From positions 62,001-126,000 of the forward strand of contig CABVRZ010000006.1 in the NCBI GenBank assembly GCA_902500775.1: a stretch of 64,000 nucleotides of DNA, given 5' to 3'. The position numbers and the translations under genes were made by a program. Position 1 is the stretch's first letter. Each line of letters starts with the position of its first letter. Below, piece after piece: positions 2,426 through 38,059 of the stretch. Source of the DNA: an uncultured Nitrospira sp. (GTDB taxonomy: Bacteria; Nitrospirota; Nitrospiria; Nitrospirales; Nitrospiraceae). Under the pieces are notes generated by a model. It did not search any database. It saw only the letters and a list, made by a program, of their open reading frames with translations, and was not told the DNA's origin.

Positions 2426-2866
2426 CTATTTCGGCAATCTGAGCGCCTTCACCGCAGCACGAGCGGCGGTGCGAGCTTTGATGGCAGGACCCAGGAGCAC
2501 GCCAGGATCGGCGTGGACCCCGATTTCTGCAACACGTTTACAGTATTTGATCACATCATGAAGTGAGGAAGTCGTCTCGTCTCGTTGCGGACTAGCCGGA
2601 GGCACTTGCTTGAGTAGGGATCCGGCATAGCGAGCAGATTCCCCGCAATGATGAAGGATGGCCTTCGCATCGCCCATTCCGCCATGAGCCACCATGTCCT
2701 CTGCATTAACTGTTAGTCCATCGAGATCATCCGTCAAACGACTCGTCGGTTCAGCAGCCACTGCGACCAGCTCACCCAGAGTGCTGAACAGAGCGGGCAC
2801 GCCCCCCCCCATGACTGTCACGATCATGCACAAGCCAACCGCGCGACACCTTGCGATCATCTTCAT
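2426..2866 (-). CDS. Small exported protein, SmbP-like
   Basis: This 146-residue protein has a signal peptide (hydrophobic segment at residues 9-38, cleavage likely near 'VAVAAEP'). The mature part is helical with His/Cys-containing segments ('MVAHGGMGDAKAILHHCGESARYAGSLL'-type spacing over residues 58-86). That recalls the four-helix small metal-binding protein SmbP of nitrifiers, which binds copper, although the His content is lower here. The start ATG overlaps the upstream gene's stop as TGATG, so the two are translationally coupled. It lies downstream of the copper oxidase genes, consistent with metal binding, but this is inference. Confidence 0.5.
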   Translation of the reverse strand: MKMIARCRAVGLCMIVTVMGGGVPALFSTLGELVAVAAEPTSRLTDDLDGLTVNAEDMVAHGGMGDAKAILHHCGESARYAGSLLKQVPPASPQRDETTSSLHDVIKYCKRVAEIGVHADPGVLLGPAIKARTAARAAVKALRLPK

Positions 2867-3372
2867 CAGTAGCGCCCCTTGGGATCAATCACCGCAGATG
2901 TGAGTTCGCGATAGAGCCGATGGAACGCGTCTGTACTTAGCTCTGGGTTTCTCAGCTTTTCCAACGTTTCTTGGTTGATGGGATACTCGACCGTATCATC
3001 GTAGTTCGAAGACGCAATCGTAATAAACCGAGGAGGAAACAGCCGTTCAGGCAACAAAATGCCGACGCCAAGATTGTATTTCACGGCTAGACGAATCGCC
3101 TCTCGGGCCTTATCCGCTGGAACGTCCCTGCCCAACCCGATGTTCTGTGGCGGCTGGCCCATTCTCGCGTATTGGAAGTGGACATTCGTGAAACCCACCT
3201 GAACAAATTCTTTTTTTATTTCTCCTTCGCGCGTTCGATACGGATAAGCCAGCACAACTTCCACCCGACTCACGGAAGCCGGCGCAGCAGTATCTGCAAA
3301 GACGATCGGGACAGCCGACTCGCCAACCGCCAGCGTGAGTATACCGACGACCAAAACATGCAACAGAGCCAT
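2866..3372 (-). CDS. Exported hypothetical protein
   Basis: This 168-residue protein has an N-terminal signal peptide (cleavage probably after 'IVFADTAA'). The mature domain contains 'VEVVLAYPYRTREGEI', 'AREAIRLAVKYNLGVGILLPERLFPPRF' and no cysteine. I do not recognise the family. It is translationally coupled (TGATG) to the small SmbP-like gene. It lies 165 bases beyond the oxidase gene ending at 3537, separated from it by a terminator-like hairpin. Confidence 0.65.
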   Translation of the reverse strand: MALLHVLVVGILTLAVGESAVPIVFADTAAPASVSRVEVVLAYPYRTREGEIKKEFVQVGFTNVHFQYARMGQPPQNIGLGRDVPADKAREAIRLAVKYNLGVGILLPERLFPPRFITIASSNYDDTVEYPINQETLEKLRNPELSTDAFHRLYRELTSAVIDPKGRY

Positions 3373-3536: not shown

Positions 3537-6500
3537 TTACTTGACGCTCAGCGCCGTGGGAGAGACCTTTGCCTTCCCATTTTGCGTTGCCGTCTTCGTT
3601 GAAGGCACCTGCGGTGTCAACGGCTTAATCCGTTGATCATCCGTCGGAAGCACCCGGAAGAGGCCCCACTGCCCAGCGTTGGCGTATGCCGGTCGCTGAT
3701 TCTTCCAGATGTAGTCTCCGACGATCCTATTTGGACCGCCTGCTCCACCGGTCAGATGGGCATTGATGATTTCCGAACCGCCAAATTCCATGGTGCTAAC
3801 TTGGTCGGCACCCTGCATGTACGGTTCGTGCGGCCATTCATGTCCATCGATCGTGAACAATTGCACCTGCTCGCTGAATGCACCGAGCACATGCACCGCC
3901 ACTGGGTCTCCCAGATGCGCCTGCAACAACGGTGTCGCTGGTGTCTCCCCGGCCTTCACGCAGGCAAAGACCTCAGGGATGTCACAACCCTTTTCCATCC
4001 GCCATGCAGTCGGTTCAGAGCGGTAGTTCACCGCGGTGATCCCTGCCACTTGTTGGATATAGGGCATGAAACTGACCCCAACGATGTTATCCTCGTCCTG
4101 GAACATCAAGGAAAAGTCTCGATAGTTCTTCCGATTTTCATTTCCTGAAATGGTCCGGTCAACAAGCACATCCGCCCGCCAGCTGCTCTTCATCGTCACA
4201 TCTTCGCCGGTCACTGGATCACGATACCGTGAACCCTTCGGACCAACAATGATGGACCCAAATAGCCCATTTCGCGGGTTCTCCACGACGTTGCCCCAGT
4301 CCTGAATGAGGGCTGCAAGTTCCCCATACTCTGGATGCGCATAGTACGTATAGGTCTTGCTCTCGCCTGGGCCGACCGTTTGGTCACCGGGATTGTTCCC
4401 GACGTTGGCGCCGAACGAGTCCTTCGGGTCAAACGCCATCATGTCGACGTGGAATCCGGCTCGATCCTTAGCCATTTCGTTCTTCAGATTGATCTTCACA
4501 CAATCTCCGACGTTGACGTGCAGCGTCAACGGGCTCGGCTTCAATTCACCGGCCTTGACACGCCCCCGATCCCCATCGAGCACATACATCTTGCCCTGTT
4601 CATTCCCAAACACCATCTTCCGTTCGAGGTCGACTTCCATAACACCCGGCGCACCATCATGGTACCGGATCTGTTGATCGACCGCCGAGACGTTAAAGCT
4701 CTTCACAGGAACTTCCGCCGGACAGACCGACGGGGCAGACTTCTGAATCTGCTCACGGCTAGGCAAGGGCTTCAGGTCGGCTTGCAATTCATCGAAGACT
4801 CTGAAGATACCCCAGCTGCCTTCAGCGAAGTGAGACGCACGACCGCTGTAGTAGAGGTAATCGCCCGCTTGCTTCTGTGGACCACCAGCAGCCGGAATGG
4901 CCGGATCGTACCGCTCACCGATCACCAGGTGCACGGTGCTTCGCGGCATCGCGTCCTTGGCGTATCGCTCCATCGGGAACCAATGGCCGGTCACGTGCCA
5001 CGTATGCACTTCATTCGCTGAGCCAACCAGCGCCCGCACCATGATCGGGTCACCGAGATAGGCTCGTAGTAGCGGCGTACCAGGATCGCCATGGATTCCC
5101 GACACGAAGAGTTTCGACGGGTCAGGATTATTGGCGAGACGGACGCTCAGCGGCTCGACGCGCATGCCGTAACCACTGCCTGTAGTCGCTTCCCCACCGT
5201 TGAGGAACCACATGGCCGACTTATTGATCTTCTCAGGGAATTGATGCGACGGTGGTCCATCGACCGTGACTGCACCGACCTTCGCCTGAGGATTGTCCGT
5301 CGTAATCAGCTCCGCCGTTCTGGCGTTGCTGTCCATAATATGCATCATAACTTCGCGGAAGCTCCCACGAATGTGGGCCGAGACCGGTTCCAACGTGTGA
5401 ATATCCGCGACGGGACCGCTCCGGATTTCCTTACCCGTAACCGGGTCATGATAGGTCGACCGCGGCGGCTCAGTGATAAAAGCCGAGAACAGTCCATGGC
5501 CCCACGTATCCGTTCCAAACACGTGATCATGCCAGTAGACCGTACCGAGGTCTGCATCGACATACCAGCGTTCACGAATGAATTCCACGCTGGCAATATC
5601 GTTCTTCTTATGTGCGTGCCTCAATGGCGCATCAAATGTAATGGTCTTTCCGTTGATAGCCTTGATCCGAGCCACTTCAAAGTACTTCGGATCATCCATG
5701 CCGACGCCAAGTTCAGTGTTCACATGGAACTTGGACGTGTCCGCAACGGTAATACTCCGTGAACCGACCTTTGTATCCGCCGTCAAGACAGTGTTCCCAG
5801 GCAACGGCATGCCCTTATCGGGTTGTGGGTCTTTCAACATCGTGAAAGCCCTGAGCGACATATCGTACGAGAATCCGATGGTCGGACCATCAGACGCGCT
5901 CGTATCGAATTGGAAGAAGTGCGGGTGCAGGTTGATCTTGTTGGACCAGCCAGTCCGCGCATCATCCGGGATTTCGTTCTTAAAGATCACGTCCACACAA
6001 TCATAGACGTTGCCGCGGATAACCAACGGCACTTGCCTCTTGGGATTCTTTCGAACTTCTGCTTCCTCTTCGTGCAACACATAGATCATACCGATCGGAT
6101 CAACCAACGCTGCGGTATTCGCCGTGGCGGGTTTCAGCGTGATCGGTAGAGTGATGGAGTGCGTCGTAAAATACTTCCGCGGAGCATTCTCTGGGCACAA
6201 ACTCCATGGACCCTGTTCACCAGGCTTGGGCGGTTCGGTACTCTTTGTACCATCTTCCCTTACATGGAACGGCTCCAACCAGGGAGCTCCACCATGGTTC
6301 GGAGCAAATGGCGGACGCTTTCCGAGGTGCGGACGCAACCACGGGAACGCCAACTTCCCAGTCTGCGGATCGAAGGTGATCGGAGGCCGCTTTAACGGCG
6401 TGGGCGACACATAGTCCGCCCACTTATGCGGAGTCTCCGGTTCATTGAGCGCTAACGCAGCTTCCCACTTCCAGTTCACGACCGTCGGGTCATTGGCCTG

Positions 6501-8276
6501 AGCTTGCTTGACCTGATCTTCCGTCTTGCCAGGCAAACCCTGAGGCGGAAGCATGTACTCAACCCAATCCTTGATGGATACCTTTGCCGGATTAGCTTTC
6601 CAATCGGTCTTATCCTTTGTGATTTCCCACTTCTTCCCGCCATACCAATCGACCGTGGTGCCGACCAACTTATCGGAGCTGACGGCCTGCTTAATCTTGC
6701 CCTTTCGATCCGGCAACTCTGCCAACGGCTTCATCACGTCAGTCTGGAACCCGGGAGCCTGCAAGGTGTTATACACCCGCCAGAACCCCCACATACCCGT
6801 CACGTAGTGCTGCGGGATATGGCAATGGAACACAAATTCTCCGGCCAACGCTTGCAATCCACCGGATCCGCCTTCGATCACTTCATCATAGATCTCGGAC
6901 GGTCCGATTGACTGCACATCCAAACGGTCCGACGTATCGTTGATCAACGGAAACTTGACCGGACCATTCTTCGACAGCGTCGGATCCAGCTTGCTGGTTC
7001 CAGGCTGTCTGGCCCAACGAATCGATCCACCATGCAAGTGGTGCGAATGGACGATTTCTGACCCACCGATCATGCGGAAGGTTGCAGGATCGCCCAAGTA
7101 GGAACGTGGAATTGTGGTAGCCGGGTCACCGAACGTATAGGACCCATAGCCCTGTGATTCATCGGCAAATCCCACGAGATGCTCTTGCATCTCCAATCGC
7201 GTCCCGTGTGGCTCACTACGATAGTTGAGCAACCGAGCGGCCGGCCGATAGGTATCGGTATGGGCGTCGCGTTGCGGGAGCATGTCGCCTTTGCGATTCA
7301 AAAGTCGGAATGTCTCGTCACCGGCTTCATGATAGAAAATCACGAATTCGCGGAAATCCGATCCCTTGTCCTTATCGATGATGGCTTCCCAACCGCTCTT
7401 CATTTCCTCGCCGGTGAAGGGGCTCAAGAAACGAGAACCGCGTGGCTCCACCACGAGCGACCCCAACAAACCGAGCGAGTACTGATCTCTCGAGGCATGG
7501 CTGTGGAACGCATGCCCGCCCTCTTGCGTATCAGGCTGGATATACCACTCAAATTCACCGGTCTTTCCCGAGGCCACCAAGGCTTCGGGATTATTGGCTG
7601 TCGCCGGCTTGCCGGTGCTGGCCACCAGCAATTGCGAGCCATTGATGATCATATTCGTGGGTTCGCCTTCGATCTGGTTGCGGAGTGTAATCCGCAAGCA
7701 ATCGCCCTGGTTTGCTCGGATAACCAACGGCTGAATCAAATCGCCTTGCAAGCCGTTCGAGACCGCCCCACCAGCAAAGCTTGGATCTTCGCTCTCGCGC
7801 GCCGCTTTATTCTTCGTCTCTTCGTCGCGCACACCCGCCACATTCTCAGTGAGGACATACATGAAGCCCGGATAGAAATCGCCGAACCGGTTGACCGTGA
7901 TCTCGACGTTCATTGCCGTCACGTCATAGGCCCGAACCGATGCATGGGCGGGACATCTCCCACCCTGCGTAACTTTCACCTTATCCATGTCATCTGCGAC
8001 AAGGAGCACACCCTGCTGCATCGCGTGAGCACTGGCTCCCTGGAATGGTCCTTTGCTGTGAACCTGCCGTTCAACTTGCTCCACGGCTTTTGACATCTTG
8101 TCCATCAGCGCTGGACCAGCTTGAGCATGAACCGGCTGTGCCAGATCCTGCTTCGTATCCTGGGCGATATGGGCATCATGCGACATGAGCGCACTAGCCG
8201 GCAGCGCCCCAGCCAAGATCAGACTAGCCACCAGCCCCAGGACTCCCGACCCCATCCATCTTATTGAATCGATCAT
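3537..8276 (-). CDS. Giant six-domain multicopper oxidase 1 (secreted)
   Basis: This 1579-residue secreted protein has a signal peptide (residues 1-29) and three repeated two-cupredoxin units, beginning near C108 ('RCPAHASVRAYDV'), C694 ('LCPENAPRKYF') and C1185 ('VCPAEVPVKSFNV'). Copper motifs visible are H258-S-H260, H410-S-H-H-L-H415, H484-C-H-IPQ-H490 with M495 (type 1 plus type 3 ligands), H784-P-H786 and H916-D-H918, with more His at 1094 and 1098. Motifs III/IV thus precede motifs I/II. Size and domain number resemble giant oxidases implicated in Mn(II) oxidation elsewhere; the substrate here is not established. The start has AAGGAGGAGG 8 bases upstream. A sigma-54 promoter and two palindromes lie upstream, beside a two-component system. 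Confidence 0.9.
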   Translation of the reverse strand: MIDSIRWMGSGVLGLVASLILAGALPASALMSHDAHIAQDTKQDLAQPVHAQAGPALMDKMSKAVEQVERQVHSKGPFQGASAHAMQQGVLLVADDMDKVKVTQGGRCPAHASVRAYDVTAMNVEITVNRFGDFYPGFMYVLTENVAGVRDEETKNKAARESEDPSFAGGAVSNGLQGDLIQPLVIRANQGDCLRITLRNQIEGEPTNMIINGSQLLVASTGKPATANNPEALVASGKTGEFEWYIQPDTQEGGHAFHSHASRDQYSLGLLGSLVVEPRGSRFLSPFTGEEMKSGWEAIIDKDKGSDFREFVIFYHEAGDETFRLLNRKGDMLPQRDAHTDTYRPAARLLNYRSEPHGTRLEMQEHLVGFADESQGYGSYTFGDPATTIPRSYLGDPATFRMIGGSEIVHSHHLHGGSIRWARQPGTSKLDPTLSKNGPVKFPLINDTSDRLDVQSIGPSEIYDEVIEGGSGGLQALAGEFVFHCHIPQHYVTGMWGFWRVYNTLQAPGFQTDVMKPLAELPDRKGKIKQAVSSDKLVGTTVDWYGGKKWEITKDKTDWKANPAKVSIKDWVEYMLPPQGLPGKTEDQVKQAQANDPTVVNWKWEAALALNEPETPHKWADYVSPTPLKRPPITFDPQTGKLAFPWLRPHLGKRPPFAPNHGGAPWLEPFHVREDGTKSTEPPKPGEQGPWSLCPENAPRKYFTTHSITLPITLKPATANTAALVDPIGMIYVLHEEEAEVRKNPKRQVPLVIRGNVYDCVDVIFKNEIPDDARTGWSNKINLHPHFFQFDTSASDGPTIGFSYDMSLRAFTMLKDPQPDKGMPLPGNTVLTADTKVGSRSITVADTSKFHVNTELGVGMDDPKYFEVARIKAINGKTITFDAPLRHAHKKNDIASVEFIRERWYVDADLGTVYWHDHVFGTDTWGHGLFSAFITEPPRSTYHDPVTGKEIRSGPVADIHTLEPVSAHIRGSFREVMMHIMDSNARTAELITTDNPQAKVGAVTVDGPPSHQFPEKINKSAMWFLNGGEATTGSGYGMRVEPLSVRLANNPDPSKLFVSGIHGDPGTPLLRAYLGDPIMVRALVGSANEVHTWHVTGHWFPMERYAKDAMPRSTVHLVIGERYDPAIPAAGGPQKQAGDYLYYSGRASHFAEGSWGIFRVFDELQADLKPLPSREQIQKSAPSVCPAEVPVKSFNVSAVDQQIRYHDGAPGVMEVDLERKMVFGNEQGKMYVLDGDRGRVKAGELKPSPLTLHVNVGDCVKINLKNEMAKDRAGFHVDMMAFDPKDSFGANVGNNPGDQTVGPGESKTYTYYAHPEYGELAALIQDWGNVVENPRNGLFGSIIVGPKGSRYRDPVTGEDVTMKSSWRADVLVDRTISGNENRKNYRDFSLMFQDEDNIVGVSFMPYIQQVAGITAVNYRSEPTAWRMEKGCDIPEVFACVKAGETPATPLLQAHLGDPVAVHVLGAFSEQVQLFTIDGHEWPHEPYMQGADQVSTMEFGGSEIINAHLTGGAGGPNRIVGDYIWKNQRPAYANAGQWGLFRVLPTDDQRIKPLTPQVPSTKTATQNGKAKVSPTALSVK

Positions 8277-8476
8277 ACGTTGCTCCTCCTCCTTCTAGTT
8301 CCTACTTCTATGTTCGTTGTCAGAAGATGTTACGCGTCACAATGGTTTAGAGTCTGGCAGGGTCCGATGATACACGGAGGGTACTCGAGGAGGTCGGTCC
8401 TTTGGTGCCCACTTCCCTACCAGACAAGTTAGATGCTCAATTGCGCACACGAATACCGATATCTACTGAATGCATT

Positions 8477-8492
8477 AGCAAATGCCATTCCA
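8477..8492 (-). promoter_or_regulatory. Sigma-54 (-24/-12) promoter of the first giant oxidase
   Basis: Read on the minus strand the site is TGGAATGGCATTTGCT. It matches the sigma-54 consensus TGGCACG-N4-TTGCW at TGG, A, G and the whole TTGCT, with the obligatory GG and GC at the correct spacing. Transcription would begin near 8466, leaving a leader of about 190 bases before the ATG at 8276. The gene for an NtrC-class activator is adjacent. Confidence 0.75.
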
Positions 8493-8564
8493 GGTAGCGT
8501 TACTCTTAGATTTCGCTATTTCTTGCGAGATTCTTGCGGACTTGGTTTACGATCTAGAATCAAT

Positions 8565-8584
8565 ATGGGGCAACAGCGCCCCAT
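8565..8584. promoter_or_regulatory. Palindromic enhancer-like site 1
   Basis: Perfect inverted repeat ATGGGGC-N6-GCCCCAT (spacer AACAGC). Its centre is about 108 bases upstream of the predicted sigma-54 start, the usual distance for an NtrC-family activator site. It shares its half-site with the palindrome at 8653. Confidence 0.7.
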
Positions 8585-8652
8585 CATTTTCTCATTTCTG
8601 TCGATATATAATTGCTTAATTGGCAGTTAGTGCTATTTTCCTCTCAGAATGG

Positions 8653-8676
8653 AAATGGGGCATCTATGCCCCATTT
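8653..8676. promoter_or_regulatory. Palindromic enhancer-like site 2
   Basis: Perfect inverted repeat AAATGGGGC-N6-GCCCCATTT (spacer ATCTAT). The 7-base core half-site and 6-base spacer are the same as in site 1. Its centre is 90 bases from that of site 1, about 198 bases upstream of the predicted start. The likely binder is the neighbouring response regulator. Confidence 0.7.
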
Positions 8677-8726
8677 ATAGAACAGAAGTGCATGCTCCGA
8701 ATCCTTTTATTCGCATGAAGGGACCC

Positions 8727-8861
8727 AGCAGTCTGCTGAAAAACCCTTCGTTCATCCTTCGAAAGCCTCAGGACGAACGAGGCAGCCATTGAAACTATTC
8801 AGGTGTTCCGTTCGTGCTGAGCTTGTCGAAGCACACAGATTGAGTTTTTCAGCAGACTGCT
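8727..8861. repeat. Dispersed repeat family A, copy 1 (MITE/REP-like)
   Basis: A 135-base element bounded by a perfect 17-base inverted repeat, AGCAGTCTGCTGAAAAA at 8727-8743 and its complement at 8845-8861. The interior shares blocks such as CGTTCGTGCTGAGCTT and TCGAAGCACACA with the copy at 17252. It has no coding capacity and lies between the oxidase control region and the 3' end of the response-regulator gene. Confidence 0.85.
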
Positions 8862-8959
8862 AGACGCTGCTGCTACAAGAAGCCAGCAACAATGTCTCCA
8901 TCAACCACGCAAGAGCCGTGAGTGCTCAGTAGCTGCCAGCCAATACGTAGTTCGTTTGG

Positions 8960-10369
8960 TCAAAATGATCCCCGCAGACCGTGCCTCTTAACCATCCGCT
9001 CAATGGTCTTACGATCCACACCAGCTTCACGCGCCGCCCGCCCCATGTGTCCATCGTGACGCTTCAGGAGATCGACTAAAAACCCCCGTTCGAAAGACTC
9101 CACCGCCTGTTGCTTAGCCTGCTTGTATAAACTGGATTCCGGTTGCAACGCATCCCTCTCTGTCAGGGCCCGGAGACGCTCGGGCAGATGAGTACTGGTC
9201 ACAGTGGTTCCATCGACCAACACAGCGGCTCGTTCCATCACATTTTGCAGCTCCCTGACATTGCCGGGCCATGAATATCGCATCAACAGATCGGCGGCCG
9301 ATGGATCGATTGTCGGTACCATGGTGGCATCACATCGAACCCGCGATGCAAACCTAGTCAGAAACTCATTGGCCAATAGAAGAATGTCCTCTCCCCGCAC
9401 CCTGAGAGGGGGAAGAGTTATCGAAATGACGTTAAGACGGTAATACAGATCTTCACGGAAGGTCCCTCTACGGCACAATTCCTCGAGATCCTGGTTGGAT
9501 GCCGCAATGACACGGACGTTCAATGGCGTGAACCGTGTCCCGCCAACCCGCCGCACGTGTCTCTCTTGCAGAACACGAAGCAACCGTGCTTGTAGATTCG
9601 CCGTCATCCCACTGACTTCGTCGAGAAACACTGTGCCACCATCAGCCGCCTCAAACAGACCGGCCTTTGCAGCGTGAGCACCAGTAAAGGCTCCCCTTTC
9701 ATGGCCAAACAGCTCAGTTTCTAACAGTGAGTCCGGTAGCGACACGCAGTCCACGGTGATAAACGGACGGTCGCTGCGTGAGCTCAGCTCGTGAATCATC
9801 CGAGCGACCATTTCTTTTCCAGTCCCGCTTTCTCCATCGACGAGAACATTTGAATCGGTCGGTGCCACTTTGCTCACGAGTGCCAAGACATGTCCTATCA
9901 CAGCACTGTTCCCCACAAGCCTGGTCACGTCCGTCGTCGAAGGTGCGGACAATCCTCCCCGTGAGGCACCGATGAGCAAACACGCATCGGAGCTCAACGC
10001 CACGGATTCAAAAGCCCGTCTTGCCACGTGCACCAGCTCCTCGCTTGTAAACGGTTTCGTGATATAGTCGAAGGCACCATATCTCATGGCCGTCACGGCC
10101 GTATCGACCGTTGCATGCGCTGTGAGGAGGACAACAGGGACCGTCGGATCCATCCGCTTAGCAGCAGTCAGAACCTCAATTCCATCCAGCTTGGGCATCC
10201 GCAGATCCGTCAACACGAGGCCCGGCCGTTCCCGCACCATCATCTCAAGTGCATCTCTCGGATCGGTGGTCACCACGCAGTCATACGGTACTCGGCTGAG
10301 AATTCTTTGACAGTTCTCCACCGCCTCTCGCTCGTCGTCAACTATGAGAATTTTTCCTGCGATTCCCAT
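8960..10369 (-). CDS. NtrC-family sigma-54-dependent response regulator
   Basis: This 469-residue regulator has a receiver domain (residues 6-120; acidic pocket D11-D12, phosphoacceptor D55 in 'LVLTDLRMP', K near 105). An AAA+ domain follows with Walker A GESGTGKE (179-186), the sigma-54-contacting GAFTGA loop (226-231), Walker B 'GGTVFLDEV' and arginine fingers. A Fis-type helix-turn-helix ends the protein ('AAREAGVDRKTIERMVKRHG'). Its start overlaps the end of the kinase gene by 28 bases, so they form a two-component pair. The oxidase gene just downstream has a sigma-54 promoter with two palindromes, making it the obvious target; that link is inferred. Confidence 0.95.
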   Translation of the reverse strand: MGIAGKILIVDDEREAVENCQRILSRVPYDCVVTTDPRDALEMMVRERPGLVLTDLRMPKLDGIEVLTAAKRMDPTVPVVLLTAHATVDTAVTAMRYGAFDYITKPFTSEELVHVARRAFESVALSSDACLLIGASRGGLSAPSTTDVTRLVGNSAVIGHVLALVSKVAPTDSNVLVDGESGTGKEMVARMIHELSSRSDRPFITVDCVSLPDSLLETELFGHERGAFTGAHAAKAGLFEAADGGTVFLDEVSGMTANLQARLLRVLQERHVRRVGGTRFTPLNVRVIAASNQDLEELCRRGTFREDLYYRLNVISITLPPLRVRGEDILLLANEFLTRFASRVRCDATMVPTIDPSAADLLMRYSWPGNVRELQNVMERAAVLVDGTTVTSTHLPERLRALTERDALQPESSLYKQAKQQAVESFERGFLVDLLKRHDGHMGRAAREAGVDRKTIERMVKRHGLRGSF

Positions 10370-12378
10370 ATTCCCTCTTCTTCAACCAACGCGTCACACC
10401 AGACTGCTGGTAAGGTCACGGAGAATAGTGCACCGGTCTCTCCGTTTTTCACCTCAATCTGTCCTCGATGGTCTGCGACGATCCCGTAGGCCAGAAATAG
10501 CCCCAACCCGGTTCCCTGACCAGCCGGTTTGGTACTAAAAAATGGATCAAAGACCCGTCCCATGATCTCCTGTGGAATGCCAAGTCCGTTGTCGGACACC
10601 GTCACTTCGACCCCAAGCCTTCCATCCATCTGCATGGGTCTTGTTCGAACTGTCACGATACCACCCCTTCCCAAGGGGGTGACCGCATCAATCGCATTGT
10701 TGATCAGATTGAGGATGACCGTTTCTAGTCGATCACGATCACCCATGACAGGAGGCAGTAATGGGGCAAGCCTGGACTCCAATCCCACAGAAAGGGCCGC
10801 AACTCGCTCACCAGCGAAGCCAACGCACGAGCGCACGACACAATTCAGATCAATGGGTTTCAAGGTCGATACCGATCCTCGGGAGAAAGCTAGAATACTT
10901 TTGGTAACCCTGGAAATTCGCTCTGCCTGAGCCTTGACCGCAAGAAGATCACGCCTCACCACATCCGAAATCGGTGAACAGGCCGCATCCGCCTCCATGC
11001 ACTCGATCCGATTCAATATGATTCCGAGTGGATTATTCACCTCATGTGCGATCCCACTCGCAACCTTGCCAAGCGTAGCCAGACGTTCGGCTAATTCGAG
11101 ATTGTGCATATGCAGGGTAATCTCCTGCGTCTTCTCTTCAACGCGACGGGCTAGGTCTTCGTTGAGTGTTTCGAGCTCAATGCGAGAAGCCTTCAACCTA
11201 TCGGCCATGCGATGCACCGCAACGGCCAATTCCTCGAACTCGTCACCCGTGTGGATATTGAGGGGATGCTCATAGGTCCCTTGACTAATCGCCTCAACGC
11301 CACTCTGAAGAATCTGAATGGGCCGTGCAATCCGTGCCGCAACATATCGGCCGATCGACAAGAGAAGTCCCAACATAACAAGACCAATCAGGGCTAAATT
11401 CCGCGATTGATCGCGGATGGGCGCATAGCTCTCAGAAGGTTGCTGACGTACAAGAACATGCCATGGGTTCTCCGGTATCTTCAGCTGAGACACCGGTGCA
11501 TACCCCACCACTGTATCCATCGCACCATGCCCATCATCTTCCGCAACACCCCATCCCGGCTCCTCGGACACAATCATCGCCATTAACTGACTGGGAATTC
11601 GGTGTGCCTGCCTGGGAAGAATCGGACAGACGAGAGGATTTCCTGCGTCATCAAACAACATCGCGTGACCGGTTTGGCCGATGTGAATCTGCTTCACCAT
11701 GGCGAAGAGTGTATCGAAGCGGTACGAGGCCTTGACTGCTCCAATGACAACACGCTGCCGGTCGTCAAGAATAGGCACCGCAATATCAATCGTCTCTTCT
11801 GGAGTCCGAAACGACCCTTCTTGGGCCGGAATCATTCCGCTGATATATACCTGGTCTCCAGTACCCGTTTGGACAGCCTTCCACCACGATTCATCCCCGA
11901 AAAAAAAGTGGTCTGGATCGGAGCTGGCGGCCACCAATGCCCCGTATTGATCCACGATGAGCAGGCCCACAACCTTATCCCCACCACGAACCTTTGTTTC
12001 CCGAAGAAAGCGGGAGAGGTCGGCGTCCATGAGTCGCACTGCACTCGCCACCCCCGTGTCCCACAGCTTTATGCGGTCTGAGATGAGGTGTTGTGCGTCA
12101 TTGAGATCCTTGGGATAGGTTCGATTGACCACTTCAACCGGTTGGCGCACGCGCAAGGGCGTGTTTCCCAATAACCGAACTCCTTGCATCTCTGCCTGGA
12201 CCATCATGGTCACTCGATCTGCTGCTTGAACAGCCACCGCCTGAAGATTTCCACCGATCACATCTCGAAGAGACTGCATACCAGACACATAGGCAAGCGC
12301 AAGCCCAATCAACAGCGGAATGCATCCCACCAGCACGATCGCCAGCATGATTCGAGCACGAATCGTCCCGATTTTCAT
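10342..12378 (-). CDS. Membrane sensor histidine kinase
   Basis: This 678-residue kinase has a first membrane helix (about 11-31), a long periplasmic sensor region (about 35-320, double-Cache-like with 'KVVGLLIVDQYGALVAAS' and 'GHAMLFDDAGNPL' segments), and a second helix (about 335-355). HAMP, a coiled coil, a HisKA domain with phosphoacceptor H445 in 'GIAHEVNNPLG', and a HATPase domain ('NLINNAIDAV', 'DNGLGIP', 'GTGLGLFLAYG') follow. It should sense a periplasmic signal, plausibly a metal or redox cue given the neighbours, and phosphorylate the regulator encoded in the overlapping gene. The signal cannot be deduced from sequence. Confidence 0.93.
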   Translation of the reverse strand: MKIGTIRARIMLAIVLVGCIPLLIGLALAYVSGMQSLRDVIGGNLQAVAVQAADRVTMMVQAEMQGVRLLGNTPLRVRQPVEVVNRTYPKDLNDAQHLISDRIKLWDTGVASAVRLMDADLSRFLRETKVRGGDKVVGLLIVDQYGALVAASSDPDHFFFGDESWWKAVQTGTGDQVYISGMIPAQEGSFRTPEETIDIAVPILDDRQRVVIGAVKASYRFDTLFAMVKQIHIGQTGHAMLFDDAGNPLVCPILPRQAHRIPSQLMAMIVSEEPGWGVAEDDGHGAMDTVVGYAPVSQLKIPENPWHVLVRQQPSESYAPIRDQSRNLALIGLVMLGLLLSIGRYVAARIARPIQILQSGVEAISQGTYEHPLNIHTGDEFEELAVAVHRMADRLKASRIELETLNEDLARRVEEKTQEITLHMHNLELAERLATLGKVASGIAHEVNNPLGIILNRIECMEADAACSPISDVVRRDLLAVKAQAERISRVTKSILAFSRGSVSTLKPIDLNCVVRSCVGFAGERVAALSVGLESRLAPLLPPVMGDRDRLETVILNLINNAIDAVTPLGRGGIVTVRTRPMQMDGRLGVEVTVSDNGLGIPQEIMGRVFDPFFSTKPAGQGTGLGLFLAYGIVADHRGQIEVKNGETGALFSVTLPAVWCDALVEEEGIWESQEKFS

Positions 12379-16309: not shown

Positions 16310-17251
16310 GTGAGCATTGAAAAGGTGGGGGGACTCCCGGTTGCACGCAATATGCTAGGTTACAATATAGGTTCCACGACATTCCTTTCCTTTCTCCTTC
16401 TGATTGGATCTTCCACCGTCGTGCAGGCCGGATCAAAACCTTCTCTGGAACTAGCTCGTCATCTCACCGCCATTGCAAACCTGTCCCAGCCCTCACCCAT
16501 TGTACTCATCACAGCCGGTCTAGTTTTTATCGGCAGTAAACGGGTTGATAGCGATCCTTACGGGAAGTGGACACAGTTTGATGACACTGAACTTCCTCAA
16601 CATCACGTATGGTTGGACGCATACGAGATCGATCGCGATGAAGTGAGCCTCGGGGAATACCTGGCATTCTTACACCAACAGGACAGCTATCCCTCGACCG
16701 AGTTGCAGCAACTCCTATGGCATGTCATCACTGTTCATTCTATCCCGGACGAGGCCCTAACACGGTGGCCCGCTCTGTACGTGACATGGGAGGAGGCCGA
16801 GGAGTTCTGCGCCATCAAGCACGCGAGACTGCCCACAGAAGCCCAATGGGAAAAGGCCGCAAGAGGGCCAGAGGGTAATCTCTATCCATGGGGTGACGCC
16901 ATGCCCAACTCCAAACTAGCCATGTTCGGGCAACATCATGTCCACGAAATTCCCATTCTTGCAACGGTCGATTCCCACGAAGAGGGCAAAAGCCCTTATG
17001 GGCTACACCATATGGCGGGAAACGTGGCAGAGTGGGTGCATGACTGGTTTGGGTTGGACTATTATGCCTACATGCCGGATCGAAATCCCCCAGGTCCAAC
17101 CACTGGACGCTACAAAAGCGTTCGTGGAGGTTCGTGGAAAAGCAAGCGAGTCATGCTCAGAACGGCAACAAGGGGCGGTGCATCGCCCGATCAGCGGTCC
17201 TCCACGATTGGGTTTCGATGTGCACGGACACTGACTTTAGTTTCCCCCTAA
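16310..17251 (+). CDS. Exported SUMF1/NirV-like protein (1)
   Basis: This 313-residue protein has an N-terminal signal segment ('TTFLSFLLLIGSSTVVQA') and a SUMF1 (formylglycine-generating-enzyme-like) domain. Hallmarks include 'HHVWLDAYEIDRDEVS', 'ARLPTEAQWEKAARGPEGNLYPWGD', 'SPYGLHHMAGNVAEWVHDW', 'SVRGGSWK' and 'GFRCART'. The catalytic cysteine segment of true FGE (YC near the RYRVAAR motif) is absent, so it should not make formylglycine. NirV, encoded beside copper nitrite reductase genes, is the nearest described analogue. It is the most divergent of five such proteins here. The start at 16310 has a weak ribosome site; the ATG at 16352 is an alternative. Confidence 0.85.
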   Translation: MSIEKVGGLPVARNMLGYNIGSTTFLSFLLLIGSSTVVQAGSKPSLELARHLTAIANLSQPSPIVLITAGLVFIGSKRVDSDPYGKWTQFDDTELPQHHVWLDAYEIDRDEVSLGEYLAFLHQQDSYPSTELQQLLWHVITVHSIPDEALTRWPALYVTWEEAEEFCAIKHARLPTEAQWEKAARGPEGNLYPWGDAMPNSKLAMFGQHHVHEIPILATVDSHEEGKSPYGLHHMAGNVAEWVHDWFGLDYYAYMPDRNPPGPTTGRYKSVRGGSWKSKRVMLRTATRGGASPDQRSSTIGFRCARTLTLVSP

Positions 17252-17385
17252 CAGTCTGCTGAAAAACTCTTCGTTCATCCTGCGAGAGCCTCAGGATGAA
17301 CAGAGAAGCCATTGATACTATTGATGTTTTCCGTTCGTGCTGAGCTTATCGAAGCACACATATTGAGTTTTTCAGCAGACTGCTA
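17252..17385. repeat. Dispersed repeat family A, copy 2
   Basis: The element starts at the first base after the stop codon of the SUMF1-like gene. It is bounded by a perfect 18-base inverted repeat, CAGTCTGCTGAAAAACTC at 17252-17269 and its complement at 17365-17382. The interior is strongly similar to the copy at 8727. It could fold as a long hairpin in either transcript. Confidence 0.85.
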
Positions 17386-17481
17386 GCCCCTATTTATCTT
17401 CCGCAGATGTGGAACACTCTGTTCATATACTTCAGCGACCAAAAAGAAAATATGCCAATCAGTGTGGTAGGATTTCCCCCC

Positions 17482-18072
17482 ATGCGTCTACTCCGGTCAG
17501 CATTCATGCTTGTGTGCTTCGTCATGCTCCCCTGGCAGTCGGCATCTGCGCTGGAGTTCACTGCCGACCAAGTGACTAAAATCGATGGAAAAATGCGCAA
17601 GGCGAATATCTACTACCGCGATGCCATGTGGCGTATTGAACACCATACCATGGGACCCGTCAACGTCAGCATCGTGCGAAAAGACAAGCAAGTTGTGTGG
17701 CTGTTGCTGTCGAGAATGAAGCATTTCAAGACTGTTCCGTATAGTCCTGAGCAGGACCTCAGAGTGGGTGAAACATTGCCTGGTGAGGTCTCACGGGAAG
17801 AGATCGGCCAGGAAGTCCGGGAAGGACACCCGACCGTCTTGTACGAAGTGACGACGAAGCAAGGCGAGCAGGTCGATGTCTACTATCAATGGCTCGCGAC
17901 GGACATTCACTTTCCCATGAAGCTGGCCAAGAAAGATGGTAGTTGGATCATGGAATATCACCATGTCAAAATGCATTCGGTATCAGACTATCTCTTCAAC
18001 TTACCAGTCAACTTCCAGCCATTGGAAGAATTCGATGCGCCAGCTCGGGAGCAGAACGGGCCAGGCCTGTAA
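17482..18072 (+). CDS. Exported LolA/DUF4412-like protein (2)
   Basis: This 196-residue protein starts with a signal peptide (MRLLRSAFMLVCFVML..., cleavage near 'SASALEF'). The mature domain parallels that of the protein at 15219: 'FTADQVTKIDGKMRKANIYYRD', 'VSIVRKDKQVVWLLLSRMKHFKTVP', 'EVREGHPTVLYEVTT', 'YYQWLATDIHFPMK'. I chose the ATG at 17482 over upstream ATGs (17407, 17452) because it gives a compact signal peptide and TAGGA lies about 10 bases ahead. It precedes a SUMF1-like gene by 33 bases and is likely in one operon with it. Confidence 0.75.
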   Translation: MRLLRSAFMLVCFVMLPWQSASALEFTADQVTKIDGKMRKANIYYRDAMWRIEHHTMGPVNVSIVRKDKQVVWLLLSRMKHFKTVPYSPEQDLRVGETLPGEVSREEIGQEVREGHPTVLYEVTTKQGEQVDVYYQWLATDIHFPMKLAKKDGSWIMEYHHVKMHSVSDYLFNLPVNFQPLEEFDAPAREQNGPGL

Positions 18073-18105
18073 CACAATCGTGTCGAAGAAAAAGGAGGAG
18101 GGGCC

Positions 18106-19017
18106 GTGCAGGTGTTAGGAATTATTGTGAGCGTCGTGCTGATGGGAGTCATCGGCGGAAGTGACGCATCCGCATTGGACGTGGCTGATGTCGTGCGTCA
18201 ATGGACGACCGAGGGGAAAAAACTTGCAGAGGAACGGGCGAAGCTGCCGGCTCATGACGAGATGGCCCTCATCCCAGCTGGTGAGTTTCTCATGGGCAGT
18301 GACAAGAAGGCCGATCGGAATGCGTATCAGCCAGAACTCCCACAGCGAAGTGTCTATCTCGACTCCTATGAAATTGATCGGTTCGAGGTAACAACTGTCC
18401 AATTTTTGAAATTTGTCTTGGCGCATGATCTACCGCCTCTCATCGATTGGCAATACGACGGCGGCAATTTCCAGGACACTATGACAAACCATCCAGTTAT
18501 GCATGTGTCCTGGATTGATGCCGAAGCCTATTGCAAGTGGGCGGGGAAGCGCTTGCCCACGGAGGCTGAATGGGAGAAAGCAGCGCGTGGGGAGGACGGG
18601 CGCCTGTATCCGTGGGGCAATCAGATCGCCGGGTTGTCACGAGCCAACTTCGGTCGGACCGGCCTGTCTGGCCCTGTACGCGATCGCCCCGAACGATTGC
18701 TCTTGTACCCACCAATCATCTCAGTTGATAAATACGACAATGCGGTCAGCCCGTACGGATTATTCCAGATGTCCGGGAACGTAGCCGAATGGGTAGCTGA
18801 TTGGTACGATCCTAAGTACTATGCCGCGGCACCAACCAAAAATCCGAAGGGACCGGAGAAGGGAACGCAGCGAGGTTTTCGTGGCGGAAGCTGGATCGAC
18901 AGTACCCCCAGTGTACGGGTGGCTCAACGGAATGGAACGGGCCCTAACACTAAGATGAATTGGCTCGGCTTTCGCTGTGCACGAGATGCCAAACCCGCAG
19001 CAGACGCTCCCAACTAG
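18106..19017 (+). CDS. Exported SUMF1/NirV-like protein (2)
   Basis: This 303-residue protein starts at GTG 18106 behind an AAGGAGGAGG ribosome site and has a signal peptide (cleavage near 'GSDASALDV'). It carries a complete SUMF1 domain: 'MALIPAGEFLMGSDKKADR', 'RLPTEAEWEKAARGEDGRLYPWG', 'SPYGLFQMSGNVAEWVADWYD', 'FRGGSWIDS', 'GFRCAR'. The FGE active-site cysteines are missing. It is very close to the protein at 29216, sharing long blocks such as 'RANFGRTGLSGPVRDRPERL', so one arose from duplication of the other. Role is inferred from context with copper oxidases, as for NirV. Confidence 0.88.
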   Translation: MQVLGIIVSVVLMGVIGGSDASALDVADVVRQWTTEGKKLAEERAKLPAHDEMALIPAGEFLMGSDKKADRNAYQPELPQRSVYLDSYEIDRFEVTTVQFLKFVLAHDLPPLIDWQYDGGNFQDTMTNHPVMHVSWIDAEAYCKWAGKRLPTEAEWEKAARGEDGRLYPWGNQIAGLSRANFGRTGLSGPVRDRPERLLLYPPIISVDKYDNAVSPYGLFQMSGNVAEWVADWYDPKYYAAAPTKNPKGPEKGTQRGFRGGSWIDSTPSVRVAQRNGTGPNTKMNWLGFRCARDAKPAADAPN

Positions 19018-19136
19018 CTCCTCCTTCCCTGTTCAACAAGGGCTAACGCAAGCAGCCATGTCCGAGCATGGGGCACATGAGCCGAGGAGGGGCCACGCGA
19101 GGGAGAATTAGGGGAAACGGAGTAGACGTCCGCCGA

Positions 19137-19982
19137 CTATTTCCCCGGAACATCTGTGGCGCAACGAAATCCAGTAGACTCGTTACGCATGGTCGGGTCG
19201 CTCTCCACTCGGGTGAAGATGCGGACAGTTGGTGTTTCATTTTGCCAACCAGCTCCCCGGATGACCTTCTTCGACCCAGTTTCAGGACCTTTGGGATTTT
19301 TGTCCGGACTTTTCTCGTAATAATGGGCGTCATACCAGTCATGGACCCACTCCCAGACGTTGCCGGCCATATCATAGACTCCGTAAGGGCTCCTTCCCGC
19401 CTCATAACTCCCAACCGGCATAAGGGTTTTTACCCCAATCCAGCGTTGATTGTAGTTGAGATGTTTGGCGGTTGGCTCAACATTCCCCCATGGGAACCGT
19501 CGATCGGCTGTCCCTTTTGCTGCCTTTTCCCATTCTGCTTCCGTCGGTAGTCGTTTACCCGCCCATGAACAATACGCCTCTGCATCGGACCAATCCACGT
19601 TAATGACCGGACGCTCAGCGACCGATTCCGTCATGTGATCGCCTTCCCAGATATTTCGTGTTGGGCTCGTAAGATTCTGTGGCACACGATGTCCCGTCGC
19701 CTGGACGAATTCAAGATAGCGGCCATTCGTCACTTCAAATTTGTCGATCATAAATATGTCGACAAACACTTCATGCCGTGGATACTCATCACGCCCTCCA
19801 TCTCGGTCCCCGGATGGTACACCCATTGGAAACTTTCCAGCTGGAATCATCACCATCGGTGCGCCATCTTTACTGTGTGGCACCTCAACCGGCACTTGAG
19901 AAAGACGTTCTTCTGCAAATGAAAGCGAGACACTGAATAGACAACTCGACACCACAGCAAGCTTAAGAACTCGAATAAACAT
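19137..19982 (-). CDS. Exported SUMF1/NirV-like protein (3)
   Basis: This 281-residue protein starts at ATG 19982, with AAGGAG upstream, giving a signal peptide (cleavage near 'VSLSFAEE'). The SUMF1 domain shows 'MVMIPAGKFPMGVPSGDRDG', 'HEVFVDIFMIDKFEVTN', 'RLPTEAEWEKAAKG', 'SPYGVYDMAGNVWEWVHDWYD', 'VIRGAGWQNE' and 'GFRCATD'. The catalytic cysteines of FGE are absent. It ends a minus-strand run that begins with the cupredoxin gene at 23052 and converges on the SUMF1-like gene ending at 19017. Confidence 0.87.
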   Translation of the reverse strand: MFIRVLKLAVVSSCLFSVSLSFAEERLSQVPVEVPHSKDGAPMVMIPAGKFPMGVPSGDRDGGRDEYPRHEVFVDIFMIDKFEVTNGRYLEFVQATGHRVPQNLTSPTRNIWEGDHMTESVAERPVINVDWSDAEAYCSWAGKRLPTEAEWEKAAKGTADRRFPWGNVEPTAKHLNYNQRWIGVKTLMPVGSYEAGRSPYGVYDMAGNVWEWVHDWYDAHYYEKSPDKNPKGPETGSKKVIRGAGWQNETPTVRIFTRVESDPTMRNESTGFRCATDVPGK

Positions 19983-20097
19983 CAGAGCACGCTCCTTCCA
20001 CCAAAGCCGTCGGCGGTTGATCGTATCATAGTCAGTCGGTGAATGCCGCGTCATCCCCGCAGGACATCTTCCCCCCTCTCAATCGCAATCTCTGCAC

Positions 20098-23418: not shown

Positions 23419-26400
23419 CTATTTCAAGACCGTTGGCAGAACCCTCGGCTCATGATCTGCTTCTGCATGCTTGGAACCAACTCCAGCCGCGCTTAACGAT
23501 TGAATCCTATTGTCGCCATTCGGCAACACTCTCAGGAACCCCCATTGACCTGACTGGGAGTACGGCAGCCGTTGATTACTATAGACATAGTCACCGGACA
23601 ATCGGTACGGCCCTCCGGCTGAAGAAATGAATACATCGAGAACTTCAGAACCAGAGAATTCGACGACGCTGATCTGGTCGGCTCCTCGCATATACGGTTC
23701 AATCGGCCACTCATGCTTCTCAACGCTGAACATGCCATTCTGCTCATTATTTGCACCGATCACATGAATTCGTACCGGATCACCGGCATGTGACTCAATG
23801 ATCGGTGTCGCCGGATCCTCAGGCTTGTCCGCCTTACAGGGTTGAAACATCTTACCCAACGAACAGCCCTGATCTTGCCGATATAAATAGGGTTCGGACC
23901 GGTAGTTGATGCCGGTCAGACCCGCCACGTTTTGCACGTACGGCATGAAGCTCGTCCCGATGATGTTATCCTCATCCTGGAAGAAGAGTGCGACATCACG
24001 ATAGTTATGGCGCATTTCGTTCCCAGAGATGGACTTGTCCACTATCACGTCGGCAGCCCAGGCATTTTTGTTCGATAAATCGACACCTGTCTTTGGATCT
24101 CGATATTTGGATCCCTTTGGACCAACCACGATTGCACCGAACAAGCCGTTGCGTGGATTGGTCATCACATTACCCCAATCCCACACCAGCGAGGTAGTCT
24201 CTCCGTTGAATGGATCAGCATAGAAAGTGTACACACGTTCAGCAGCTGGTGCGATCGTCTGATCACCAGAATTGTTGCCGACATTGGCACCTAACGAATC
24301 CTTCGGATCAAATGCGAGTCCGATTGCCGAAAATGAAGCCTTACTAGCCTTCATCTTATTCTTCAGATTCACCTTCACACAGTCCCCAACGTTAACCCGA
24401 AGTGTGAGTGGCATCGGTTTGGTGTTTCCAGACACCTTGGCCACATCATCCTCCAGCGCGTAAATCTTTGCATCTGGATTGGAGATTTGAATCTTTCGCT
24501 CAAAATCTACTTCGATTGTCTCGGGCGCCTTGGGGTTAAACGTCATCGACGGATAATCCATCGCCACCACATTGAAGCTCTTGACCGGAGCATCAGCTGG
24601 ACACACCGGTAAGGGCTTCTGAATTTCCCCCTTATTGGAGAATCCGGCAGGCAATTTCTTCAAATCCGGCCGTTCCTGATCATACACGCGCACGATGCCC
24701 CATCCGCCTTCGGATAGTTTTGATGACCGACCGTTAAAGTGAATATAGTCCCCAGGCTGATGACGAGGACCACCCGCCTCAGGTACCACTAAGTCATACC
24801 GTTCTGCAATACCCACATGAATGGAGTTCTTCCGGTTTGCATCTGGTGCATACCGCTCGGTCCAAAAGGTATGGCCAGACAAGGTCCAGGTCATCGTCTC
24901 GTTCATAAGGGTATGCAACAGCCGGAACACCATGGTGTCGCCGGTGTAGGCCCTCAGAAGCGGCGTATAGGGATCTCCATGGATCTGGCTGTTGAAGATT
25001 TGCGAAACATCCGGATTGGTTGCCAAGCGCTGTGCAATTGGGCCAGCCCTGAAGTTCAGACCGCTTCCGGTCGTATGGGTGCCTCCGTTCAAGAACGGCA
25101 TCGGAGTCATGTAAATTTTTTCAGGCATCACAAACGATACGGTTTTCCCAGCCTCCAGCGCCACCTCGATCGGTTGCCCTGGCGGGTTCCCCGCCGTGAC
25201 GATATTGACGGTATGTGGGACCGTATCGTGCACCTGAACCATTAACTCACGGAAACTATTATTCACTCCATGGCCCACAGGTTCGTTCGTGTGAATATCC
25301 GCGATTGGGCCACTGCGTATCTCTCTTCCGGTCACAGGATCGTGATAGGTGGACCCAACCGGCTCGGCGATGAATGTCCCAAACCCGCCATGCGGCCAGG
25401 TTGTTGCACCGAATGCATGGTCGTGCCAAAACACAGTTCCCACGTCCGCATCCACCCAGAACCGTTGACGAACAAATTCAACCGTCACAATGTCCTTGGC
25501 AGGATGATCGTGCTTCAGCCCCTTCGATAGCGTGATCTGGTTACCATTGATCGACTTGATTCGCGCGATCTCGTTACCCTTCACATTGTCTGCACCAACC
25601 ATGATCAAGGTTCCCACATGATACTGCTTGGCATTCTTGACAGACAGTGTGTTGGCCCCCTTCTTTGCAGCCGAGTTCAGCACAGTATTCATCGGAGCAG
25701 GAAGCCCCTTTGGATTCTTCTTCTCAAGCATCGTGAACGGACGCACCGACTGCTCATAGGAGAATCCGGTGATCACGCCATCTGATGCCTGATTGTCAAA
25801 CTGAAGGAAATGCCAGTGCGTGTTAATTTTTGACGCCTGGAAATTCGTGTAATCATCGTCGTCCCACTCACTGGTCAACGTCCAATCCACGCAGTCATAA
25901 ATGTTCCCACGTACGACTAACGGATACTTGAGATCGTCATTGGCGCGAACCGCGGCTTCTTCTTCGTGCAGTACGTAGATCAAACCGTTTTGATCAATGA
26001 CGGCCGGTTCCTTCCCTTGCGCCTTGGCAATCTTGATCGGCACTTTGATGAAATGGACATTGTAACTCTTCCGCCCCGCGTTCACTGGACAGAGACTCCA
26101 ATTCCCCTGCTCACCGGGCTTGGCTTGATCGAGACTCTCCTCTCCATTGTCGTCGCGCCGAATCATCTCCAACCAGGGTGCCCCGACGTGATTCGGAGAA
26201 AACATGACCCTCTTCCCAAAATGCGGAGTGAGATGGGGCCAGGCTACCTTCCCCGTCAGCGGCTCAAACATGATCGGGTGCCGCTTGCCTGGATGAGTTG
26301 ACACGTACTTTGGGTTGACGATCGTACTTTCCTTTTCGCTCATTGCACGAGTGCCTTCCCATGTCCAATCCAGCACGGTGGCATCGTACGAGACGATCTG

Positions 26401-32297: not shown

Positions 32298-35200
32298 CTA
32301 TTTCATCGCAGTCGGAGTAGCTTTCGGTTGCGGTGCTACCTCAGCCCGCTTGACTGCCGCTCCCATCGCCCCGAGCGGTTGGATCCGAGTATCACCTGCT
32401 GGCAAGACTCGGAGATAGCCCCACTGCCCGGACTGCGTGTAGGGCAGCCGTTGATTCGACCACACGAAGTCACCGACCTGACGATACGGACCACCCGCAC
32501 CGCCACGAAGGAAGACATCGAGGGTTTCAGAACCAGCGTACTCCACAACACTGATCATATCAGCACCCGGCATGTACGGCTCGATCGGCCACTCATGGCC
32601 CTCGACTCCAAACATCCCGTTTTGCTCACTATTGGCGCCGATCACGTGAATCCTGACCGCGTCGCCTGCGTGCGCTTCGATCAGCGGCGTCACCGGATCC
32701 TCCGGCTTGTCAACGACACAAGGCTGGAAGATCTTCCCCAGCGAGCAGCCCTGATCTTCTCGGAACTTGTAGGGCTCTGCGCGGTAGTTCACCGACGTCA
32801 AGCCCGCGACATTCTGCACATACGGCATGAATGCCGTCCCGATGATGTTGTCCTCATCTTGGAAGAAGAGGGCCACGTCACGGTAGTTCCGTTTCCCGAC
32901 GTTGTCTGGGAGCATCGTGTCCACGATCACGTCCGCCCGCCAGGCATTCTTCTGTGAGACATCGGCACCGGTCACAGGATCACGGTACTGAGACCCGCGC
33001 GGGCCGATGATGATTGCGCCATACAATCCGTTCCGTGGATTGACAACGATATTGCCACCATCCCACACCAAGGAGGTCGTCTCCTTGTTCGACGGATGTG
33101 CGTAATAGGTGTACTGACGTTTTTCACCCGGACCAATGGTCTGGTCGCCGCCATTGTTGCCGACGTTCAACCCTTGACTGTCCTTCGGATCAAAGGCCAA
33201 TCCAGGCGCGAAGAATGACGCCCGACTTGCCTTCATCTTATTCGTCAAGTTCACCTTGATACAGTCGCCCAAATTGGCACGCAGTGTCAGCGGATGCGGG
33301 GTCGCACCGCTGGACACCGTCGTGGCTTCTCCTTCCAGCGCGAAGATCTTGCCTTCCGGCATGGTCATTTCAATCTTCCGCTCGAAGTCCACTTCAATCG
33401 CATCCGGCGCTTTCGGATTCAACTTCATCGGGCGATCCAACGCCACCACACTGAAGTTCTTGACCGGTGCATCCGCCGGACAGACTGAGCTCGGCGTGGC
33501 AGGAATGCTCAAAGGATTGGTTCCCTTGGGCAGAGGCATCAGGTCGGGCACTTGTTTATCCAGCACCCTCAGGATCCCCCATCCACCCTCTGCGAAGTGT
33601 GAACTTCTACCATTAAAGTGGATGTAGTCACCCGGCATACCCTGGAATCCACCTGCCTTCGTGACCAAATCGTACCGTTCGGCGATTCCAACGTGAATCG
33701 AGTTCTTCCGATTGGCATCCGCCGCATACCGTTCCGTGAGGAAGGTATGGCCGGAGATCGTCCAAACGTGGGACTCATTCATGAGCTGGTGCAACAGACG
33801 GACTACCAGGGTGTCACCTGTGTACGCCCGAATCAATGGCGTGCCAGGATCTCCATGGATCGCGCTGCTGAACAGCTTCGAGGAATCCGGATTATTGGAT
33901 AGGCGTTGTGCAAACGGAGCCGCGCGGAAATTGAAGCCGCTGCCGGTCGTATGCGTTCCGCCGTTGATGTACTTATTCGGCGCATTCAGGATCTTTTCCG
34001 GCATCTGGAACGACACGGTCTTTCCAGCTTCCAGAGCAACCTCTACCGGTTGTCCTGGTGGATTCCCGGCCTCGATCACGTTCACGGTGTGTGGCACCGT
34101 GTCATGGATCGATACCATCAGCTCACGGAAACTCCCACTCACGCCGGCCCCGATCGGTTCGTTGCTGTGAATATCTGCAATCGGACCGCTGTAGACCAGC
34201 TTGCCGTTCTTCGGATCATGATACGTGGATCCGAACGGTTCCACGATCGTCACGCCGAACCCGCCATGGGGCCAGGTCGTCGCACCGAAGGCATGGTCAT
34301 GCCAGAACACCGTGCCCATATCCACATCGACCCACCACCGATAGCGGACAAACTCTGGTGATACCAGGTCACCCGCTGGGTGATTATTCTTCAATGGCTT
34401 ATAGAACGTCACCTGATTGCCCTTGATCTCCTTGATCCGGACAACCTCCTGACAGCTCTTGTCGCGTGGCAACGAGGCCGTCGTATCGTTCCCCTTCTCT
34501 AAACAATCCATGCCGACCATGACTTCGGTATTGACATGGAAGGGCGTGGCGCCTGGAGCCATCTTGATGGTGAATGATTTTGCTCCAGCTTTCGCGGCTC
34601 CCTCTAGCTTCGCCACCATCGGTGCCGGCAACCCATGCTTGGTCTTCTTCCCCCACATGGTGAACGGCCGGACCGACATCTCATATTCAAACCCTGAGAT
34701 CACACCATCCGAGTTCCCCGTGTCGAACTGGAAGAAGTGGGGATGGATGTTGATCTTGGACGACTGGAAATTCGTGTAGTCGTCGTCGTCCCACTCGCTC
34801 GTCAGCAGCACGTCCACACAGTCATACACGTTGGCACGAATGACTGCGGGAAGCTTCAAATCGTCATTCGCTCTGGTCAAACGCTCTTCTTCATGCAGCA
34901 CATAGATCAAGCCGTCCTTGTCGACCATGGCCGGCTCTTTCCCCTGCTTCTTGGCCAGAGTAATCGGCATCCGCACGAAGTGGATGTTGTAGTGTTTGCG
35001 ATTCGCATTTTCTGGGCAGAGACTCCATCGGCCCTGCTCGCCCGGCTTGGCTGGCTCGGAGGTCCGCTCACCATTTTCATCCTGGTGAATCGGCTCCAAC
35101 CAGGGCGCTCCGCTGTGGTTTGCAGAGAAGGGCACACGCTTGCCGAAGTGCGGCTTGAACAATGGCCACGCCATCTTGGCCGTGGTTGGATCAAACAGAA

Positions 35201-37611: not shown

Positions 37612-38059
37612 AGCGACAATATTTGTCAGCAATCACTGTGCCGAAGAACAGCACGAACGACCTTCATCGTGGAATATCGCGTTAGAACAGAACGTTAGAG
37701 CTCTTCGACCATGGAATATCCACAACTCACTTTTGATGAAATATTCCACACAATAGTCACTCCGATGGACACATGGGGAGAACGTACAGTTTTTCCACAA
37801 GTTACACTGTCTATATACTTAGACAGTACTGCCTGGCGAATTGTGGCGAATTGGGACAATTCAAGCATCACGTGGTAGTTACAGCATGTGACTCCGCCGT
37901 GCTCGTTTGGGGATTTTGCTGTAACCGGAGGACAAGAACCGTGGATTGAGCGTCAGACGAGAAACCTATAGGCAGGAATGATGACTGTTCACAAAATAGA
38001 CGCACTGGACGAATTCTTGCGGAGCAGACCAATGCATGAGAAGCACCGAGGCCTGTCCG

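Follow-up and report, generated by a model that had tools for sequence, protein, structure and literature searches.

How is the transcription of a giant multicopper oxidase controlled when the genes of a sensor kinase and of a response regulator lie immediately upstream of it? The question is raised by the gene called here oxidase 1, located in a stretch of 64,000 nucleotides from an uncultured Nitrospira sp. (the window). Comparing this locus with its relatives, we conclude, with a probability of roughly 85%, that positions 8477-8674 constitute the control region of oxidase 1, which would be driven by the adjoining NtrC-class regulator through two palindromes and a sigma-54 promoter. The features concerned are collected in Table 1.

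Table 1. Predicted control region of oxidase 1 and the neighboring genes (positions in the window).
Feature	Position	Strand	Description
Distal palindrome	8655-8674		Predicted enhancer; ATGGGGCATCTATGCCCCAT, exact; centre at about -198; conserved in relatives
Proximal palindrome	8565-8584		Predicted enhancer; ATGGGGCAACAGCGCCCCAT, exact; centre at about -108; conserved in relatives
-24/-12 element	8493-8477	minus	Sigma-54 promoter element; CTGGAATGGCATTTGCT; predicted start at about 8466; position kept in relatives
Untranslated leader	8277-8466	minus	Predicted from the promoter position and the ATG; about 190 nt
Oxidase 1	3537-8276	minus	MnxG-like multicopper oxidase, 1579 aa; presumed controlled gene
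168-aa protein	2866-3372	minus	Unmatched in Pfam and NCBIfam; located behind oxidase-1 orthologues in several relatives
146-aa protein	2426-2866	minus	Unmatched in Pfam and NCBIfam; located behind the 168-aa gene in several relatives
Response regulator	8960-10369	minus	NtrC class (REC, AAA+ with GAFTGA, Fis-type HTH); presumed enhancer-binding protein
Sensor histidine kinase	10342-12378	minus	dCache, HAMP, HisKA, HATPase; gene overlaps the regulator gene

Upstream of oxidase 1, the elements follow one another on the minus strand in the order distal palindrome, proximal palindrome, -24/-12 element, predicted start and ATG (8274-8276), the latter being preceded by a strong Shine-Dalgarno sequence. 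The initial annotation had described two perfect palindromes with 7-base half-sites, 6-base spacers and centres 90 bp apart, and both were recovered exactly as ATGGGGC-N6-GCCCCAT, with identical arms and differing spacers; their distances of about 108 and 198 bases agree with a start near 8466. The -24/-12 promoter proposed for the minus strand was likewise found, with its GG and GC separated by the correct 10-base gap and two mismatches relative to the general consensus YTGGCACG-N4-TTGCW. Sigma-54 itself (rpoN) is encoded in the genome (PF04552, E 1e-58, C47:19005-19487), and a scan of 8200-9000 for sigma-70 promoters found none. The length of the leader is similar in most oxidase-1-type relatives (about 183-221 nt), and an Rfam search of the leader of oxidase 1 gave no family, its one match being a meaningless microRNA hit below its cut-off.

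The genome scan suggested together with these claims returned only two exact copies of the palindrome in 4.53 Mb, both before oxidase 1, where about 0.02 copies of a 14-base match are expected by chance, and the core of the -24/-12 element occurs a single time. A further palindrome with one mismatch (contig C72) was taken as a chance match, none of the query proteins being encoded nearby. That palindromes and promoter form a chance pattern or belong to a repeat family is conceivable insofar as the gap is not free of repeats: a large inverted repeat, imperfect in its pairing, separates the regulator stop from the distal palindrome. The absence of any further exact palindrome from the genome, the rarity of a reversed control pattern (2 of 147 family genomes, versus 49 for the true pattern) and the fixed spacing in relatives make this explanation practically negligible. 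The inverted repeat itself (8727-8861, with 53-nt arms that are 75% complementary) is possibly a mobile intergenic repeat or a terminator.

The adjacent operon had been said to encode a GAFTGA-containing NtrC-class regulator and its kinase, and profile searches found the corresponding domains in both proteins. The regulator presents a receiver domain (PF00072, E 3.8e-29) and an AAA+ domain (PF00158, E 1.7e-67) whose GAFTGA motif is kept in at least 95% of 54 orthologues. Its HTH (PF02954, E 0.00019) reaches 21.5 bits, slightly below the cut-off of 22; this segment is nearly invariant among the same orthologues, and the protein aligns end to end with full-length chains of the NtrC family. The kinase gene adjoins the regulator gene in the relatives examined. 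The nearest named relatives belong to Nitrospira.

To follow the control region among relatives, we gathered twin sites from this and related genomes. The 46 distinct ones, which are not independent of one another, share the consensus ATGGGRC-N6-GYCCCAT, and almost all orthologous loci with sufficient sequence have such sites 3' of the stop codon of the regulator gene. Alignment of these regions reveals strong conservation in the two palindromes and the promoter only, and the DNA between them diverges. The pitch of the palindromes is 88-92 bp, i.e., about 8.5 helical turns, whereas the classical pair of NtrC sites is spaced more tightly, at roughly 30 bp. For 36 of the 46 sites, a -24/-12 element with at most three mismatches lies 86-93 bp past the point where the second palindrome starts, versus about 0.2% in shuffled sequence; when all offsets are considered, they amount to 88-93 bp (36 times), 100-103 bp (eight times) and 80 bp (once), the last in a locus (L054) distinguished from L050, its sister, by a deletion of 10 bp. 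These values are suggestive of an enhancer-promoter distance that shifts by whole helical turns, and the reading is suggestive rather than proven because the shifts represent few independent events. At one locus (L025, genome G014), two palindromes are located 32 bp apart (about three turns), 351 and 383 bp upstream of an oxidase match. The genome encodes proteins of the HU/IHF type (five matches to PF00216). No enrichment of IHF-like sites over shuffles was seen between the proximal palindrome and the promoter of the 46 sites, and the stretch separating the two palindromes showed a mild excess of one-mismatch sites (12 of 46, versus 9% in shuffles).

The position of the palindromes 3' of the regulator stop, together with a scan that flags the proximal one on both strands, would also be expected if they were intrinsic terminators, forming RNA hairpins at the end of the kinase-regulator transcript, with an incidental match to a -24/-12 element. 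A hairpin needs neither conserved arms around spacers whose letters are free nor a pitch fixed at 88-92 bp, and it does not account for the -24/-12 element that follows nearly every pair; the T tails in the window are moreover poor. The strong argument comes from four loci (L172, L174, L177 and L183) in which the twin sites are found before oxidases situated 2-11 kb from the regulator gene. Because twin sites also front oxidases so far from the regulator, the site goes with the oxidase promoter, and we regard termination as very improbable.

Attribution of the palindromes to this particular regulator, instead of to NtrC-class proteins at large, comes from 147 family genomes, with E 1e-150 or better as the threshold for an orthologue. 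The orthologue is encoded in 47 genomes and the exact site is present in 49: both occur in 42, the regulator only in five, the site only in seven and neither in 93 (Fisher p 8e-24, uncorrected for phylogeny). Six genomes devoid of the orthologue encode 12 to 16 other NtrC-class proteins (E 1e-80 or better), none of them better than 4e-112, and because such genomes still hold many members of the class, the link is to one regulator. The 30 best orthologues of oxidase 1, from which that of genome G143 was excluded, gave the same picture. Neither a palindrome pair nor a convincing -24/-12 element precedes any of the 17 orthologues found in regulator-less genomes, versus a palindrome pair with its promoter before nine of the 12 found in regulator-bearing ones; the remaining three genomes (G050, G059, G136) have the regulator and the twin sites before a sister oxidase that shares about 69-70% identity with oxidase 1. 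A single site with two mismatches, 1190 bp upstream of its gene in a regulator-less genome (L029), has no promoter and was taken as a chance match.

Four of the five regulator-only genomes can be explained: inexact twin sites are present in G078 and G070, G116 (L134) offers only 90 bp of sequence past the regulator gene, and G143 (L185), where the sites are absent and the kinase is broken, was rejected as a counter-example since its gaps are assembly N. Two real exceptions are G049, which has the regulator and no site near it, and G052, which has twin sites before an oxidase and no regulator orthologue at E 1e-112 or better. Together, these comparisons strongly support the notion that the palindrome pair, the -24/-12 element and this regulator have been gained and lost together, and with it the computable steps of the initial annotation.

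Co-occurrence alone cannot name the binder of a predicted site, and the case of G052 would fit palindromes recognized by another protein, either a repressor or an activator outside the NtrC class, that merely accompanies the kinase-regulator pair. The sigma-54-type element present after nearly every pair needs an AAA+ activator, the gene neighboring the sites encodes precisely such a regulator in most loci, its HTH hardly varies, and site and regulator share their gains and losses. An unrelated binder thus seems improbable to us, less so than a terminator, and the adjoining regulator is the best candidate.

Twin sites do not always precede the same type of gene. An oxidase-1-type gene is found behind 22 of the 46, a gene closer to the second oxidase of the window behind 19 (among them Candidatus Nitrospira defluvii, L043) and a second regulator deprived of the HTH behind three, while the gene is off the contig in two. 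The control cassette, as predicted from these sequences, fronts different oxidase subfamilies. The HTH-less protein is a paralogue of the regulator, of about 400 aa and 47-52% identical to it, encoded at L172-L177, L179, L180, L183, L189 and L191. Its gene lies between those of the regulator and the oxidase and is usually preceded by a palindrome (L172-L177, except for the order in L175, and L180); the protein is possibly a partner that does not bind DNA and is itself under the control of the regulator.

Oxidase 1 matches MnxG (PDB 9bxa) along several cupredoxin stretches (E 1e-92). It nevertheless misses the MnxG equivalog NF041487 of NCBIfam (140.4 bits, E 3.2e-41, versus a cut-off of 3100 bits), and because this score is far under the cut-off we name it MnxG-like and not an MnxG equivalog. 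The odds that it oxidizes Mn(II) appear about even, an estimate separate from the one given for the circuit. The window contains three giant multicopper-oxidase genes within 34 kb, the second (23419-28251) and the third (32298-37241) of which have no palindrome before them; nearly all sampled family genomes hold at least one relative of these oxidases. About 400 bp upstream of the third, and without palindromes, is a -24/-12-like sequence, TCGGCACAGTGATTGCT (37628-37644, minus strand). Three genes with formylglycine-generating-enzyme-like (FGE-sulfatase) domains are located between the oxidases (16310-20054).

The mechanism that we infer from the established biology of NtrC-class proteins, as regards phosphorelay, binding, looping and start site, would be the following. 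The kinase would sense an extracytoplasmic signal and phosphorylate the regulator, which would bind the two ATGGGRC-N6-GYCCCAT palindromes and assemble there into an active AAA+ oligomer. By DNA looping, this oligomer would reach the sigma-54 RNA polymerase at the -24/-12 element and open the promoter, and transcription from about 8466 would cover oxidase 1 and probably the two small genes that follow it, which probably share its transcript. The kinase always accompanies the regulator. Mn(II) as the inducing signal is suggested by homology and by the example of Pseudomonas putida GB-1, in which activation of mnxG and mcoA takes place in stationary phase and requires Mn (PMC11930936, PMC11409713).

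Circuits of this type are standard textbook material, and Pseudomonas already offers a case in which Mn oxidation is controlled by sigma-54: in P. putida GB-1 and its relatives, MnxS1, MnxS2 and MnxR have been implicated together with sigma-54 in the control of Mn(II) oxidation, sigma-54 sites are predicted before mnxG and mcoA, and rpoN is needed for Mn oxidation in strain MS-1 (PMC11409713, PMC11930936). Both systems tie a kinase and a sigma-54-dependent response regulator to MnxG-type multicopper oxidases. They differ in that one kinase is present here instead of two (MnxS1/MnxS2), in that a palindromic site of the regulator and its spacing are predicted here whereas we have seen none reported for Mnx, and in that IHF sites are predicted in the P. 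putida promoters, while none are enriched here between enhancer and promoter. With NtrC/glnA and the sigma-54 regulome of Desulfovibrio (PMC4641369), the locus shares the REC-AAA+-HTH architecture, the GAFTGA motif, the -24/-12 promoter and dyad sites at an upstream distance of about 100 bp or more, comparative footprinting being the method in both studies. Unlike general NtrC-class circuits, it presents the site ATGGGRC-N6-GYCCCAT, two copies that are not close to each other but separated by about 90 bp, and one target promoter in this genome. Searches of open-access papers turned up no previous report in which oxidases of Nitrospira are placed under sigma-54, and none that describes the sequence of the site, the regulon in Nitrospira, the swapping of oxidases behind a constant cassette or the 90-bp geometry.

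Nitrospira have been proposed to oxidize manganese in drinking-water sand filters, where they dominate nitrification (PMC12070406). A wider reading of the family, tentative and in our estimate rather unlikely as a whole, is that a portable cassette (kinase, regulator, twin enhancers with a pitch of about 90 bp and sigma-54 promoter) is kept while the oxidase is exchanged, that whole-turn shifts of the promoter distance and enhancers about half a turn out of phase reflect a defined looped activator assembly, and that Mn(II) oxidation may be an inducible side metabolism of nitrifying Nitrospira. The natural spacing variants make the enhancer geometry testable. The predicted code of regulator, site and promoter is present in about a third of the sampled family genomes; it would tell for each species which oxidase is inducible, supplies designs for reporters and allows screening for the inducing signal.
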